64,000 nucleotides of DNA from the NCBI RefSeq assembly GCF_000021945.1, contig NC_011831.1, positions 1,749,353 through 1,813,352 on the forward strand. Reading direction: 5' to 3'. Every line of letters starts with the position of its first letter. Position 1 is the first letter of the stretch. The notes beneath the pieces are model-generated. The model saw only the letters and a list, made by a program, of their open reading frames with translations. It made no database searches and was not told the DNA's origin. The stretch is from Chloroflexus aggregans DSM 9485. Its GTDB lineage: Bacteria; Chloroflexota; Chloroflexia; Chloroflexales; Chloroflexaceae. Shown here piece after piece: positions 3,280 through 14,342 of this stretch. Made by a program: the position numbers and the translations under genes.

Positions 3280-3357
3280 GTTTCAGTGCAGATCGTATAT
3301 GGAAAAATTGTTATAAAACGTTCGGGGTACGAATCAAACCACGCCGATGACGGAACG

Positions 3358-4866
3358 ACGACCGGGACGGCGAACGACGACCATGACGCCGAACGACGAC
3401 CATGACGCCGGACGACGGTCCCCGTTGAGACGCACGGCCGGGACGCCGAACGACGACCATGACGCCGGACGACGGTCCCCGTTGAGACGCACGGCCGGGA
3501 CGCCGAACGACGACCATGACGCCGGACGACGGTCCCCGTTGAGACGCACGGCCGGGACGCCGAACGACGACCATGACGCCGGACGACGGTCCCCGTTGAG
3601 ACGCACGGCCGGGACGCCGAACGACGACCATGACGCCGGACGACGGTCCCCGTTGAGACGCACGGCCGGGACGCCGAACGACGACCATGACGCCGGACGA
3701 CGGTCCCCGTTGAGACGCACGGCCGGGACGCCGAACGACGACCATGACGCCGGACGACGGTCCCCGTTGAGACGCACGGCCGGGACGGCGGACGACGACC
3801 ATGACGCCGAACGACGGTCCCCGTTGAGACGCACGGCCGGGACGGCGGACGACGACCATGACGCCGAACGACGGTCCCCGTAGAGACGCACGGCAGGGAC
3901 GCCGAACGACGACCATGACGCCGAACGACGGTCCCCGTAGAGACGCACGGCAGGGACGGCGGACGACGACCATGACGCCGGACGACGGTCCCCGTAGAGA
4001 CGCACGGCCGGGACGCCGAACGACGACCATGACGCCGAACGACGGTCCCCGTAGAGACGCACGGCCGGGACGCCGAACGACGACCATGACGCCGAACGAC
4101 GGTCCCCGTAGAGACGCACGGCAGGGACGCCGAACGACGACCATGACGCCGAACGACGGTCCCCGTAGAGACGCACGGCAGGGACGCCGAACGACGACCA
4201 TGACGCCGAACGACGGTCCCCGTAGAGACGCACGGCCGGGACGGCGGACGACGACCATGACGCCGAACGACGGTCCCCGTAGAGACGCACGGCCGGGACG
4301 GCGAACGACGACCATGACGCCGGACGACGGTCCCCGTAGAGACGCACGGCCGGGACGCCGAACGACGACCATGACGCCGGACGACGGTCCCCGTAGAGAC
4401 GCACGGCCGGGACGCCGAACGACGACATGACGCCGGACGACGGTCCCCGTAGAGACGCACGGCCGGGACGCCGAACGACGACCATGACGCCGGACGACGG
4501 TCCCCGTAGAGACGCACGGCCGGGACGCCGAACGACGACCATGACGCCGGACGACGGTCCCCGTAGAGACGCACGGCCGGGACGCCGAACGACGACATGA
4601 CGCCGGACGACGGTCCCCGTAGAGACGCACGGCCGGGACGCCGAACGACGACATGACGCCGGACGACGGTCCCCGTAGAGACGCACGGCCGGGACGCCGA
4701 ACGACGACATGACGCCGGACGACGGTCCCCGTAGAGACGCACGGCCGGGACGCCGAACGACGACATGACGCCGAACGACGGTCCCCGTAGAGACGCACGG
4801 CCGGGACGCCGAACGACGACCATGACGCCGAACGACGGTCCCCGTAGAGACGCACGGCCGTGCGTC
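3358..4866. repeat. 26-copy, 57-bp tandem repeat array (REP/BIME-like)
   Basis: The block from about 3360 to 4866 is made of directly repeated 57-bp units, recognised by 26 copies of CGGTCCCCGT at 57- or 56-bp spacing. Each unit contains ACGACCATGACGCC, CGGTCCCCGT and GAGACGCACGGC. The first eight units read GTTGAG and the rest GTAGAG; five distal units have lost one C and are 56 bp; scattered C/G changes separate subfamilies. Because 57 is divisible by three, frames stay open on both strands for hundreds of codons, but the encoded 19-residue periods are not credible proteins. The array abuts a 46-bp palindrome and the RAYT gene. There are no unique spacers, so it is not CRISPR. Confidence 0.95.
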
Positions 4867-4880
4867 TCTACGGGGACCGT
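4835..4880. repeat. Perfect 46-bp palindrome joining the array to the RAYT gene
   Basis: The final array unit (ACGGTCCCCGTAGAGACGCA and on to CGG) meets its exact reverse complement at 4857/4858, giving two 23-nt arms with no mismatch and no loop. The core is GCACGGCCGTGC. The right arm supplies the last codons and the TAG stop (4868-4870, minus strand) of the transposase gene. In single-stranded DNA or RNA this would be a very strong hairpin, as expected of a REP-type substrate; it could also act as the transcription end of the transposase gene. Confidence 0.93.
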
Positions 4881-5458
4881 TCGCCGCGGAATCGGTCGCG
4901 TTCCCACCGGACCGGATTATTGCGAATATACGTCATGATACGTTGATACGCAATATCATTGCGGATAATATGATCGTGAAATCGGGGTTGCCAGACCGGT
5001 ACGCCGGGGGTCTGGCGGTATTCATTGATCCGTTTGGTGGCGGCTGCCTTGAATCCAGCAATGAACGATGAAATGGATTTCGGTGGTCGGATGATGCGTT
5101 TGCGATCAGGGGGTGGGTTGGGGGCCGCACGGCCGTGCGGCCCATCAGTGTGTAGATCGATGATTCGCAAAATTGCGTGAATGTGGTTCGGCATAATGAC
5201 GTACACGTCACATACCAATTCGGCACGAATATCAAACGATCGTTCCCATTCCTCGCGCACAATGTTACCTAACGGCGATAAACACATCTGTCCGTCGCGC
5301 ACAAACCCAAATAGATGTTGGCGTTGCGCTGTGCAGAAGGTGATGAAGTAGCGTCCTGGCGCGGCGTAGTTCCACCATGAAGCGCGTGCAGATGGAATGC
5401 GGTATTTGTTTTTGTAGAGTTGGTTGTTTTGCGCTGGCATCGTTGTGATCCGAATCAA
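4868..5458 (-). CDS. REP-associated tyrosine transposase (RAYT; Y1/IS200-like HUH nuclease)
   Basis: RAYTs are single-copy relatives of IS200/IS605 transposases that nick and join DNA at REP hairpins. The 196-aa protein shows the early strand YFITFCTAQRQ, the HUH metal motif within MPNHIHAIL, and a C-terminal helix MTYIRNNPVRW carrying the likely catalytic tyrosine. Between the HUH motif and the C-terminal helices a Pro/Gly-rich linker (GPHGRAAPNPPPD) is encoded by a 22-bp palindrome. The last residues RSP and the stop codon are read from the 46-bp palindrome. An internal ATG at 5440 is an alternative start. All key residues appear intact, so the enzyme could be active on the adjoining array. 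Confidence 0.88.
   Translation of the reverse strand: MIRITTMPAQNNQLYKNKYRIPSARASWWNYAAPGRYFITFCTAQRQHLFGFVRDGQMCLSPLGNIVREEWERSFDIRAELVCDVYVIMPNHIHAILRIIDLHTDGPHGRAAPNPPPDRKRIIRPPKSISSFIAGFKAAATKRINEYRQTPGVPVWQPRFHDHIIRNDIAYQRIMTYIRNNPVRWERDRFRGERSP
5122..5143. repeat. 22-bp perfect palindrome inside the RAYT coding sequence
   Basis: GGGCCGCACGG is followed directly by its reverse complement. It contains the same 12-bp core (GCACGGCCGTGC) as the 46-bp palindrome and differs by two bases from the GCCGCACTGCCGTGCGGC hairpin of the 13.5-kb array. It encodes part of a flexible linker, consistent with an in-frame insertion of a REP-type palindrome. Confidence 0.85.
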
Positions 5459-5733
5459 ATGCGATTCCTTCTATAGATATACCGTTTGACCAGCGCAAAA
5501 GATGCGCAAGATACTAGCGTTTAACGCAGGAATTGCTGAGGGCGAACCGCTACGTTCTGATGCACCTACTGCCAGCGAGCGATAGCTCCGCGTTGTGGCC
5601 TCATCGCGCTCAATGGTTATGTCCAGCGAACCCCACGCTCTGTTGCCATTCGAGATGTCGTACCGAGCAGAGGAGCACGCTACGACGATGTTGTTCGCCT
5701 GTACCGACCGTCACCGCCGAACATGCGCCACAG
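5459..5733. other. Gap with no supported gene
   Basis: The 275 bp between the RAYT start and the esterase stop show no reading frame with family character and no clear RNA structure. The stretch just upstream of the transposase (5459-5520) would have to hold its promoter, but no convincing box pair was seen. Confidence 0.4.
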
Positions 5734-6629: not shown

Positions 6630-6992
6630 CTACATATCCTCGAACTGCTCGAGAAACGCTTCGAGCGCACCGTTAAAATAGACATGCACGACTTGGTTGA
6701 ACGTGATCCGACTGACCGCATCCCATACCTCATCAGGGTCACTACTGTAAGCGACAAGCATTGCCTGCTCAGGATGCTCTTCATCTTCGCCGGGAGGGAT
6801 GACGAGCGCGAGCCACTGGTTGGGGTAGCATTGTTCGATCAACGCGACCGGCTCAACCCGACCCCGTTCAACCATACCGGTATATGGGCAACCGCAGCCG
6901 CAATCCGGCCCACAACTACTGTGGTCACCGGTACCGCAACCGGGGCTGGTGCCACCGTGAAACGCACTGGTGAGATTAATAACGACTGGCAT
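6630..6992 (-). CDS. Small Cys/Gly-rich protein of unknown function
   Basis: A 120-aa protein with no signal peptide. Residues 12-36 are rich in Cys, Gly and Ser (CGTGDHSSCGPDCGCGC), enough ligands for a metal site or a thiol cluster. The rest is a soluble domain with hydrophobic strand NQWLALVIPPGE and a C-terminal acidic helix. It sits between the esterase and serS on the same strand, with a gap of 74 bp to the esterase. I do not recognise the family; codon use resembles the neighbours and it is probably a real gene. Confidence 0.6.
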   Translation of the reverse strand: MPVVINLTSAFHGGTSPGCGTGDHSSCGPDCGCGCPYTGMVERGRVEPVALIEQCYPNQWLALVIPPGEDEEHPEQAMLVAYSSDPDEVWDAVSRITFNQVVHVYFNGALEAFLEQFEDM

Positions 6993-7010
6993 ACGTTGTT
7001 ATGCGACAAC

Positions 7011-7125
7011 ACGCAAAGACACTCAAACTACGCTTCCATCCTTCGCGCCGCGGCGCTTTCTTCACACTTTAAACATTCGCGCTACGGCGTTCTTCTTTCA
7101 CACCGCCGGTCCTATGCCTTTGCGT
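7011..7125. repeat. Possible small palindromic (MITE-like) element downstream of serS
   Basis: ACGCAAAG at 7011-7018 is repeated in inverted orientation as CTTTGCGT at 7118-7125, enclosing about 115 bp with further short internal dyads (GCGCCGCGGCGC at its centre-left). It fills the space between serS and the small Cys-rich gene. No target duplication is evident, so this is a tentative call. Confidence 0.3.
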
Positions 7126-7127
7126 AT

Positions 7128-8408
7128 TTACGCCGCTTCGTTCACAATCCGTTCCATCCCACCCATATACGGGCGCAACACCTCGGGAATCAGAATACTG
7201 CCGTCTTCCTGTTGATAATTCTCCATAATCGCGATAATCGTGCGCGGCAATCCAAGGCCTGATCCATTCAGCGTATGGACAAACTCTGGCTTGGCACCCG
7301 GTTCGGGCCGGTAGCGTATATTGGCACGGCGAGCCTGAAACGCTTCAACGTTAGAGCATGAGCTGACTTCAAGCCACTCCCCCACGCCCGGCGCCCATAC
7401 CTCAATATCGTAGGTCTTCGTTGAACCAAACCCGAGATCAGCCGTACAGAGCAGCTTCGTGCGGAACGGCAAACCGAGCAAGCGCGCACACTCTTCGGCA
7501 TCACGACGCAACTTCTCGAGCGCCTGATAACTCTCTTCCGGCTTCACGAACATGTACATCTCAACCTTATCAAATTGGTGACCGCGCTTGATCCCCCGCA
7601 CATCACGCCCGGCACTCAACTGTTCTTTCCGAAAACAAGGCGTATAGGCGGCGTGGTAGATCGGCAACTGACTCGCCTCCAGAATCTCGTCGGCGTAGAG
7701 ACCGGTCAGCGGCACTTCCGCCGTCGGCACCAGCCACAAACCCGACTCCTCATCACGGTAGAGATTATCACGGAACTTCGGTAACTGTCCCGAAGCCCAC
7801 AACACCGACTCTTTCACCACAAACGGTGTATAGATCTCTTGGTAACCCTGCCGCAAATGGAGATCGAGCAGCCACTGGATCACCGCACGTTGCAGCCGCG
7901 CACCGGCACCACGCATCACGTAAAACCGCGATCCGGCCAACTTGACGCCCCGCTCGAAGTCGAGAATGCCCAACGCTTCACCAAGCTCCCAGTGTGGGCG
8001 AGCGGGAAACGGCAGTTGACGTTCTTCTCCCTCTTGATAGACAACCACGTTATCGTGTTCATCAACGCCATCGGGGACATCAGGATGCGGGAGGTTGCGA
8101 ATCTCCAACATTGCTGCCCGTTGCTGCTCTTCAACGGCGGCGAGTTGGCGATCGAGTTCGGCGATCTCATCACCCAATCGGCGCATTGCCTCAATCTTCG
8201 CCTGTCGCTCGGCTTGATCTTTCATTGCACCAATCTGCTTCGAGACCGCATTCCGCTCTGCTTTGCGCGTTTCAACTTCGTAAATCAGACGACGCCGTTG
8301 CTCATCGAAGGCTAGCACCTGATCGATGATTGCACCGTCAACACCACAGCGAGCCAATTGGCGTTTTACTTCATCGGGCTGCTCGCGGATGAGTTTGATG
8401 TCAAGCAT
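7128..8408 (-). CDS. serS: Seryl-tRNA synthetase
   Basis: Class II synthetase that charges tRNA-Ser (and tRNA-Sec where present) in the cytosol. The N-terminal 110 residues form the long antiparallel coiled-coil arm ([15 protein letters not shown]). The catalytic domain has class II motif 2 around residues 258-285 ([20 protein letters not shown]) and motif 3 from about residue 381 ([18 protein letters not shown]). Length of 426 aa is normal. No T-box-like leader was seen upstream, unlike glyS in this window. Confidence 0.97.
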
Positions 8409-9606: not shown

Positions 9607-9856
9607 TCATCCACATTATTGATAGCATAACAGATTTTGCTCCCCGCCGACATCAGATCAATCGGTCGCGTGATGCGTTCCAATACCCCTATTCGCACAC
9701 CATCAATGTGTCATTGCGGTTGTGGCATTGGCCTCGTAGCACCTGGTGTGAGAATATGCGCTCACTCTATATAAGAACTTTCATAGACATTACTAACACT
9801 ATACTAATCCTCCTCTAATCAACAAGGTCTATTTTCTCAGAGTTGAGCGGATCTCC
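9607..9856. other. AT-richer intergenic stretch, no gene seen
   Basis: This part of the 740-bp gap between the Nudix gene and the NEW3 gene has lower GC than its surroundings and short T/A runs (for example CTATATAAGAAC near 9768). No reading frame or RNA fold is convincing. It may carry the promoter of the minus-strand Nudix gene near its left end. Confidence 0.4.
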
Positions 9857-10331
9857 GTGACAGGCTGCTCGGTCATCACGAAGGTAAGTTGGAAGATGTC
9901 GCGCTACGGATGTCTCGCTACGCTCGACATGACAGAACAGTGGTTGCTCCGTGACAGGCTGCTCGGTCATCACGAAGGCAAGTTGAAGATGTCGCGCTAC
10001 GGATGTCTCGCTACGCTCAACATGACAGTGATTGCTTCGTGACAGGCTGCTCGGTCATCACGAAGGCAAGTTGAAGATGTCGCGCTACGGATGTCTCGCT
10101 ACGCTCGACATGACAGTGATTGCTTCGTGACAGGCTGCTCGGTCATCACGAAGGCAAGTTGAAGATGTCGCGCTACGGATGTCTCGCTACGCTCGACATG
10201 ACAGTGATTGCTTCGTGACAGGCTGCTCGGTCATCACGAAGGCAAGTTGGAAGATGTCGCGCTACGGATATCTCGCTACGCTCGACATGACAGTGATTGC
10301 TTCGTGACAGGCTGCTCGGTCATCACAAAGG
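9857..10331. repeat. 88-bp direct repeats, five full copies and a partial sixth
   Basis: GTGACAGGCTGCTCGGTCAT starts at 9857, 9951, 10039, 10127, 10215 and 10304, giving units of 94, 88, 88, 88 and 89 bp. Each unit also contains GATGTCGCGCTACGGATGTC and CGCTACGCTCGACATGACAG. The first unit is the most diverged; the last is cut after about 28 bp, 16 bp before the NEW3 gene start. The unit has imperfect internal dyads and looks like a dispersed intergenic repeat that expanded in tandem. Position just upstream of a gene means the array is likely part of its 5' region. Confidence 0.93.
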
Positions 10332-10346
10332 AAAGGGAGGTAGACT

Positions 10347-13483: not shown

Positions 13484-13541
13484 CGCGGTGCAAGGTACCC
13501 TAGCCACCAGGAGGGGTGGGGCACGCCTCCTTCCTCCCCGT

Positions 13542-14342
13542 GCTGAGCCGCCCTGCCGTGCGGCTTTACCGTCTTGCGGACGCTGAGCCGCACTGCCGTG
13601 CGGCTTTACCGTCTTGCGGACGCTGAGCCGCCCTGCCGTGCGGCTTTACCGTCTTGCGGATGCTGAGCCGCACTGCCGTGCGGCTTTACCGTCTTGCGCT
13701 CGTGCGGACGCTGAGCCGCCCTGCCGTGCGGCTTTACCGTCTTGCGCTCGTGCGGATGCTGAGCCGCACTGCCGTGCGGCTTTACCGTCTTGCGCTCGTG
13801 CAGACGCTGAGCCGCCCTGCCGTGCGGCTTTACCGTCTTGCGCTCGTGCGGACGCTGAGCCGCACTGCCGTGCGGCTTTACCGTCTTGCGGATGCTGAGC
13901 CGCCCTGCCGTGCGGCTTTACCGTCTTGCGCTCGTGCGGATGCTGAGCCGCCCTGCCGTGCGGCTTTACCGTCTTGCGCTCGTGCGGACGCTGAGCCGCC
14001 CTGCCGTGCGGCTTTACCGTCTTGCGCTCGTGCGGACGCTGAGCCGCCCTGCCGTGCGGCTTTACCGTCTTGCGCTCGTGCGGACGCTGAGCCGCCCTGC
14101 CGTGCGGCTTTACCGTCTTGCGCTCGTGCGGACGCTGAGCCGCCCTGCCGTGCGGCTTTACCGTCTTGCGCTCGTGCGGACGCTGAGCCGCCCTGCCGTG
14201 CGGCTTTACCGTCTTGCGCTCGTGCGGACGCTGAGCCGCCCTGCCGTGCGGCTTTACCGTCTTGCGCTCGTGCGGACGCTGAGCCGCCCTGCCGTGCGGC
14301 TTTACCGTCTTGCGGACGCTGAGCCGCCCTGCCGTGCGGCTG
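13542..14342. repeat. 18-copy palindromic repeat array with 40- and 48-bp units
   Basis: GCTGAGCCG recurs 18 times from 13542 to 14318 at intervals of exactly 40 or 48 bp. The unit is GCTGAGCCGC(C/A)CTGCCGTGCGGC plus TTTACCGTCTTGCG and, in the 48-bp form, an extra CTCGTGCG. The A variant gives a perfect 7-bp hairpin GCCGCAC-TGCC-GTGCGGC. The hairpin differs by two bases from the palindrome inside the RAYT gene. The array lies between the convergent-free end of the ABC permease gene and the crcB promoter. Open frames through it are artefacts of the repeat length. Confidence 0.94.

Follow-up and report, generated by a model that had tools for sequence, protein, structure and literature searches.

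In Chloroflexus aggregans DSM 9485, a gene for a REP-associated tyrosine transposase (RAYT) adjoins an array of 26 head-to-tail repeats, and to judge from the sequences this array has quite probably arisen by degeneration of the REP at the stop codon of the gene, likely its cognate REP, into a satellite-like array through template switching at the hairpin, slippage and unequal exchange. The locus lies in a stretch of 64,000 nucleotides (the window; contig NC_011831.1, positions 1,749,353 to 1,813,352), and its features are collected in Table 1. An earlier note on the window had described 26 near-identical 57-bp units, a perfect 46-bp palindrome and a full-length RAYT gene with intact HUH and tyrosine motifs, all of which were confirmed (TRF, PDB 4er8, NF047646). 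The palindrome is indeed perfect and continuous with the 3' end of the gene, but only one of the 26 units, rather than each of them, carries it in full. Comparison with sister species shows that the palindrome grew longer in this genome through the addition of the RAYT 3' end in inverted copy; furthermore, half of the palindrome with 33 bp of adjoining DNA was repeated 26 times head to tail, with local block duplications.

The gene beside the array is a domesticated transposase gene. Its full-length product matched NF047646 (NCBIfam, REP-associated tyrosine transposase; E = 1.3e-18, 67.3 bits) as the sole family in the NCBIfam library, with a score below the curated REP_Tyr_transpos cut-off (80 bits), which is a threshold of the model and no biological defining feature of RAYT or TnpAREP. 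Pfam Y1_Tnp was matched under its cut-off (E = 0.0036), and the solved TnpAREP structure 4er8 with E = 0.0036, Tyr170 of the RAYT being aligned to Tyr115 of the chain. The features of a RAYT/TnpAREP are thus present, namely an HUH motif and a single predicted catalytic tyrosine in a Y1 core, the two halves of the protein being separated by a loop of approximately 25 residues. The ATG at 5440 is in line with the starts of the orthologues, a longer, TTG-initiated ORF reaching to 5458, and the stop codon TAG (4868–4870) forms part of the GTAG of the REP. The gene is present as a single copy, the remaining RAYTs of the genome being at most 46% identical to it; an orthologue, at locus L042, shares 76% identity, and plasmid records yielded distant RAYTs only (at most 42%). 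An IS200/IS605 insertion sequence was ruled out, as the RAYT is single-copy and occupies the same syntenic place in five species.

Two further observations concern the gene itself. Upstream of it, TTTTGCGCTGG pairs with CCAGCGCAAAA at the RAYT start, and the same leader hairpin is found at L042 (6312–6402) and L045 (6855–6945), being retained even where the RAYT has decayed; it would be predicted to conceal the start codon. Translational control is known for IS200-type transposases, and the leader hairpin of the RAYT resembles such control. In Chloroflexus RAYTs, the loop between the HUH and Tyr halves repeatedly contains palindromes or tandem repeats (L042, 6674–6738; L052, 6702–6832; L054, 3736–3832; L057, 109–278), many of which have a period divisible by three; these we read as REP-like sequence entering the transposase's own gene.

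Within the window, the 15-bp REP arm (up to 1 mismatch) has 27 matches, every one at the RAYT locus, with none in 100 shuffles. The REP core GTAGAGACGCACGGCCGTGCGTCTCTAC, counted with up to 3 mismatches, occurs in 4, 33, 2, 21 and 4 copies in the five genomes that possess this RAYT and in 0 copies in three genomes without it, although a related REP subfamily, with more mismatches, was found in one of these three. This co-occurrence (5/5 genomes with the gene, 0/3 without) makes it likely that the core is the cognate REP of the RAYT. The approximately 290 bp upstream of the gene yielded no 5' REP, their longest perfect hairpin stem measuring 5 bp. The one hairpin that is left probably serves to terminate or protect the transcript of the RAYT.

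In the sister genome G002 the RAYT has the same neighbours, genes for a penicillin-binding protein and for an alpha/beta hydrolase; in G007 the RAYT has decayed, and in G004 and G005 only its 3' part is visible, up to the contig end. All four sister species, each represented by one genome and mostly by drafts, have one REP approximately 30 bp or more past the RAYT stop codon, in the same syntenic place, plain at L042, L043 and L044 and decayed at L045. The 57-bp array was found at none of these four orthologous loci; in G004, a separate 17-bp repeat (3.7 copies) stands directly behind the REP. A RAYT with one plain REP is shown by these loci to be the ancestral state. The right flank of the REP reads AAATACGTCG in the sister species and GGGGACCGTCG here, the latter repeating the left flank CGGTCCCC in inverted form.

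The array extends from the centre of the palindrome away from the RAYT gene, to 3385. Its units measure 57 bp in 21 cases and 56 bp in five (units 2–5 and 8), and all have the same orientation, with the unit border at the hairpin tip. The full palindrome is confined to unit 1, on the RAYT side, whereas units 2–26 consist of the right arm GGCCGTGCGTCTCTACGGGGACCG and a 33-bp spacer that is itself made up of two related sub-repeats. The palindrome folds into a 21-bp hairpin (z = −10), a single unit no better than shuffles (z = −0.9). Despite the loss of GTAG, units 19–26 are the most homogeneous block of the array. From the RAYT side the unit variants run ABCCCDDCDEFGGAAHGFIJJJJJJK, and adjacent units resemble each other beyond chance (0 of 10000 shuffles as high), which indicates that the array grew by local blocks, including the part without hairpin or GTAG. 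The unit has no second site in the 4.68-Mb single-contig genome (4,684,931 bases). A CRISPR array was ruled out, since the entire 57-bp unit repeats and there are no unique spacers.

Table 1. Features of the RAYT locus and of a second array in the window
Feature	Positions	Strand	Evidence or remark
Tandem array, 26 head-to-tail units, each one REP arm + 33 bp; unit border at palindrome centre	3385–4860	−	TRF: 57 bp x 26.0 copies, 98% matches
Distal eight units (19–26), GTTG instead of GTAG	3385–3837	−	six identical
19-bp sub-repeats at distal edge, from which the 33-bp spacer of the unit is likely derived	3353–3410	−	
Perfect 46-bp palindrome: REP core + 9 bp of RAYT 3' end + inverted copy of those 9 bp	4835–4880	.	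absent at four orthologous loci
REP core GTAGAGACGCACGGCCGTGCGTCTCTAC, provides the RAYT stop codon	4844–4871	.	28 bp
RAYT gene (TnpAREP-type Y1 HUH transposase)	4868–5440	−	NF047646, Y1_Tnp and 4er8 matches; L042 orthologue
Tyr170, probable catalytic tyrosine	4928–4930	−	opposite Tyr115 of 4er8 chain; invariant in alignment of five RAYTs
REP-like palindrome GGGCCGCACGGCCGTGCGGCCC, in frame within RAYT gene, in loop between HUH and Tyr halves	5122–5143	.	other Chloroflexus RAYTs also have palindromes or tandem repeats in this loop
HUH motif, HIH, residues 85–87	5177–5185	−	both His invariant in alignment of five RAYTs
mRNA leader hairpin, 12-nt arms around leader, pairing over start of RAYT reading frame	5427–5500	−	stem also in L042, L045
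Second intergenic array, 19 units of 40 or 48 bp, sister REP subfamily	13541–14340	+	

Both steps, the inverted copying of a flank and the repetition of one arm, have counterparts at other REPs. An inverted-flank extension of at least 5 bp was observed in 9 of approximately 50 REP copies (L002, 11 bp; L004, 8; the window, 9; L130, 6; L132, 8; L138, 5; L146, 10; L151, 8; L152, 14), compared with about 0.1% per copy expected by chance. The orthologues L132 and L150 differ by just such an extension, and L313 has a REP with an inverted 14-bp flank where L316 is without both. At L146, an inverted copy of the left flank is accompanied by an array of one full palindrome and then three copies of exactly one arm (22 bp) of the lengthened palindrome, while the orthologue L129 is a plain single REP; of the arrays compared, this one serves best as a model. 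The layout of one full REP followed by half-REPs occurs in sister species, away from this RAYT locus, at L146, L156, L161 and L085; at L122, L137, L149, L157 and L059 the whole palindrome is repeated, and what the REP arrays have in common is that their units meet at the hairpin tip or close to it. The second array of the window lies 8.7 kb from the RAYT array, behind a membrane-protein gene and with no adjoining RAYT. A further tandem array (9856–10335; 88 bp x 5.4) is by eye not REP-like. As a separate observation, at L313–L316 the REP stands beside a CGAACGTTCG box, which we take to be LexA-like, and an inverted second copy of that box; L316, without a REP there, is also without the second copy. 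REP insertion may here duplicate an operator.

Tandem arrays within 600 bp of the RAYT were present at 14 of 30 Chloroflexales loci (best matches, one per genome) and at none of 60 control loci from the same genome set (Fisher p = 1.6e-8), namely 30 seryl-tRNA synthetase loci, whose gene-dense flanks lower the array rate, and 30 DDE transposase loci. The raw count was 15/30, from which L113 was left out as CRISPR-like; its array (2099–2257) directly adjoins the RAYT in G007. Flanking arrays were fewer in a wider sample, 80 RAYT relatives of many phyla, at 9 loci against 2/127 in a distal-flank control, and the enrichment is strongest in Chloroflexales. Arrays also accompany dispersed REPs, however, at 8 of 40 loci compared with 17 of 56 RAYT flank sides (Fisher p = 0.35), the former set covering one REP family in G002 and G005 with a 60-bp criterion and the latter many families with 600 bp; random positions in this genome gave 2.8% (20 stretches, 396 kb). 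As far as these numbers go, the similar rate at dispersed REPs means that the enrichment at RAYTs is explained by the REPs present there, and a modest additional contribution of the RAYT is possible, given that the criteria differ between the two sets. With respect to the genome-wide search for the unit that the earlier note had proposed, the exact unit proved unique to the locus and has no RAYT-free copy, but arrays of the same REP family without a RAYT occur at a similar rate.

The origin that we favour would begin with the hairpin, 46 nt when single-stranded, causing the replication machinery to switch template. Snap-back synthesis would then lay down an inverted copy of the left flank; the first duplication of 57 bp would result when the strand slipped back to the tip of the hairpin at a microhomology of a few bases (CGG), and the array would later lengthen by unequal exchange or by slippage among the copies. 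Cleavage of the hairpin by SbcCD is a possible entry point, and the hairpin nuclease gene sbcD is present in the genome. We infer this order of steps and, likewise, that the RAYT is dispensable for the expansion. Template switching and hairpin cleavage by SbcCD are described for palindrome-mediated replication errors (PMC7999016), with which our proposal shares hairpin extrusion, template switching and breakage at the palindrome; those errors, however, are known mostly for longer palindromes, whereas here they are inferred from natural REPs of 28–46 bp with orthologous before and after states. The following findings count against the proposal: the microhomology at the founding junction of the window array is 3 bp only, half-REP units are not the sole outcome (several arrays, L122, L137 and L059, repeat the whole palindrome), and the excess of arrays at RAYT loci allows for a contribution of the RAYT. 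The suggestion of slippage at the cut site of the transposase agrees with the favoured origin as far as slippage is concerned, but as to the cut site it is not supported: the unit border is the tip of the hairpin and TnpAREP is known to cut at its foot.

Cleavage by the RAYT at its own 3' REP might alternatively have initiated the arrays, with later growth by slippage independent of GTAG or hairpin. We consider this unlikely; if true, RAYTs would build satellite-like arrays around themselves, which would account for the arrays at just under half of the RAYT loci examined in Chloroflexales. Improbable, too, is self-amplification by the RAYT, which would nick the REP at the 3' end of its own gene and let the array gain units through repeated rounds of strand transfer or repair synthesis. 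The arrays at 14/30 RAYT loci of the order against 0/60 controls, the co-occurrence of RAYT and REP family across genomes and the intact gene speak for it. TnpAREP needs GTAG together with a stem-loop, however, and cuts at CT (or CA) outside the hairpin (PMC8266576), while units 2–26, that is 25 of the 26, lack the hairpin, the last eight have GTTG in place of GTAG and are the most homogeneous nonetheless, and the border lies at the tip and not at the foot. The same layout and a similar array rate at dispersed REPs also stand against it, as does the lack of a 57-bp array at the orthologous RAYT loci, and the transposase-driven extension put forward in the earlier note is not supported. The refuting pattern named in that note is half borne out: the four sister RAYTs are each followed by one REP and lack the 57-bp array (the short 17-bp repeat stands at one of them), and REP arrays of this family without a RAYT have a similar rate, even though the exact unit is unique.

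A functional array, acting between the RAYT and the gene for the penicillin-binding protein either as a binding site for protein or as a transcriptional insulator and with its length under selection, would suit an intergenic position at a 3' end; gyrase binding has been reported for BIME-2 tandem units, and help with Rho-dependent termination for REPs (PMC2817692). It is nevertheless quite unlikely, as the array is missing from the same place in four sister species and the REP hairpin is not kept in the units. It should be noted that units of 98% identity are difficult to assemble, so that the copy number might be an artefact of a collapsed or inflated repeat; with a single-contig genome and unit variants in an ordered pattern this is very unlikely, and the doubt touches the exact copy number only, not the existence of the array. 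That the array codes for a repeat protein (57 = 3 x 19, with ORFs of 458–586 aa spanning it and long open frames on both strands) is scarcely credible, because several frames are open together, as expected of a stop-free G+C-rich repeat, five 56-bp units cause frameshifts and there is no homologue in the sister species.

The locus can be compared with arrangements already on record. In a REPtron, REPs flank a RAYT/TnpAREP gene (Nunvar 2010, PMC2817692; PMC6006769); about one third of RAYT flanks are arranged as modular BIMEs, and one Stenotrophomonas RAYT is joined directly to a BIME (PMC2817692; PMC6006769). In P. fluorescens SBW25, tandem clusters are described as built from entire REPs or REPINs, with up to 12 GI and GIII sequences in a REP array (PMC3116915). 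The locus shares with a REPtron its Y1 HUH transposase, a stop codon at a GTAG hairpin, further REP copies in the genome and the co-occurrence of REP and RAYT across species. It differs in having no 5' REP and, after the 3' REP, 25 half-REPs in one orientation instead of alternating REPs, and it is not a REPtron in the strict sense of two inverted flanking REPs, its REP being at the 3' end only. With the SBW25 clusters it shares the tandem repetition of a palindrome and flanking DNA, but here there is one arm per unit, in 26 copies, with the border at the palindrome centre and next to the RAYT itself. Nor does one full palindrome with 25 half-REPs in a single orientation match a BIME-2 or REPIN cluster, in which whole REPs alternate or are paired.

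The arrangement, thought undescribed in the earlier note, is in part already on record. REPtrons, BIME-type RAYT flanks, tandem REP clusters and RAYTs beside REP clusters have all been published (PMC2817692, PMC3116915, PMC3733652, PMC6006769), whereas the half-REP architecture was not found in the openly available literature that was searched. Within the same scope, we found no description of Chloroflexus RAYTs, of half-REP arrays, of tip-centred half-REP units in 26 copies attached to a RAYT, of orthologue evidence for inverted-flank copying or of the array frequency at Chloroflexales RAYTs. The sister species provide before and after pairs for the passage from a REP hairpin to a tandem array, by inverted-flank lengthening and then repetition of one arm from the hairpin tip. 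They separate a possible role of the RAYT, in spreading REPs, from a possible role of the hairpin, in breeding arrays by itself, and within one bacterial order tandem arrays are found at RAYT loci in strong excess.

Other RAYT loci gave several side observations. At L222 (RAYT 6829–7164, − strand), L223, L224, L225 and L226, RAYT domains lie in frame within DNA methylase ORFs of 1284–1554 aa. These hosts are of the DUF1156 type in three genomes, with two different insertion points, and of the Eco57I type in two; L222 and L224 each show the empty insertion site of the other. Repeats that contain REPs, 30, 33 and 39 bp in period, flank these inserts and are read through as low-complexity linkers. 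Further RAYTs of one genome (L018, L019 and L020) seem, by eye from the flanking sequence, to adjoin genes of restriction-modification type. Finally, in a Chloroflexus genome of 5,258,541 bp (L092/L227), a RAYT stands between two arrays, of up to 1.3 kb, of one palindrome-bearing unit, GTGCGGCAGCCATGCTGCCGC.
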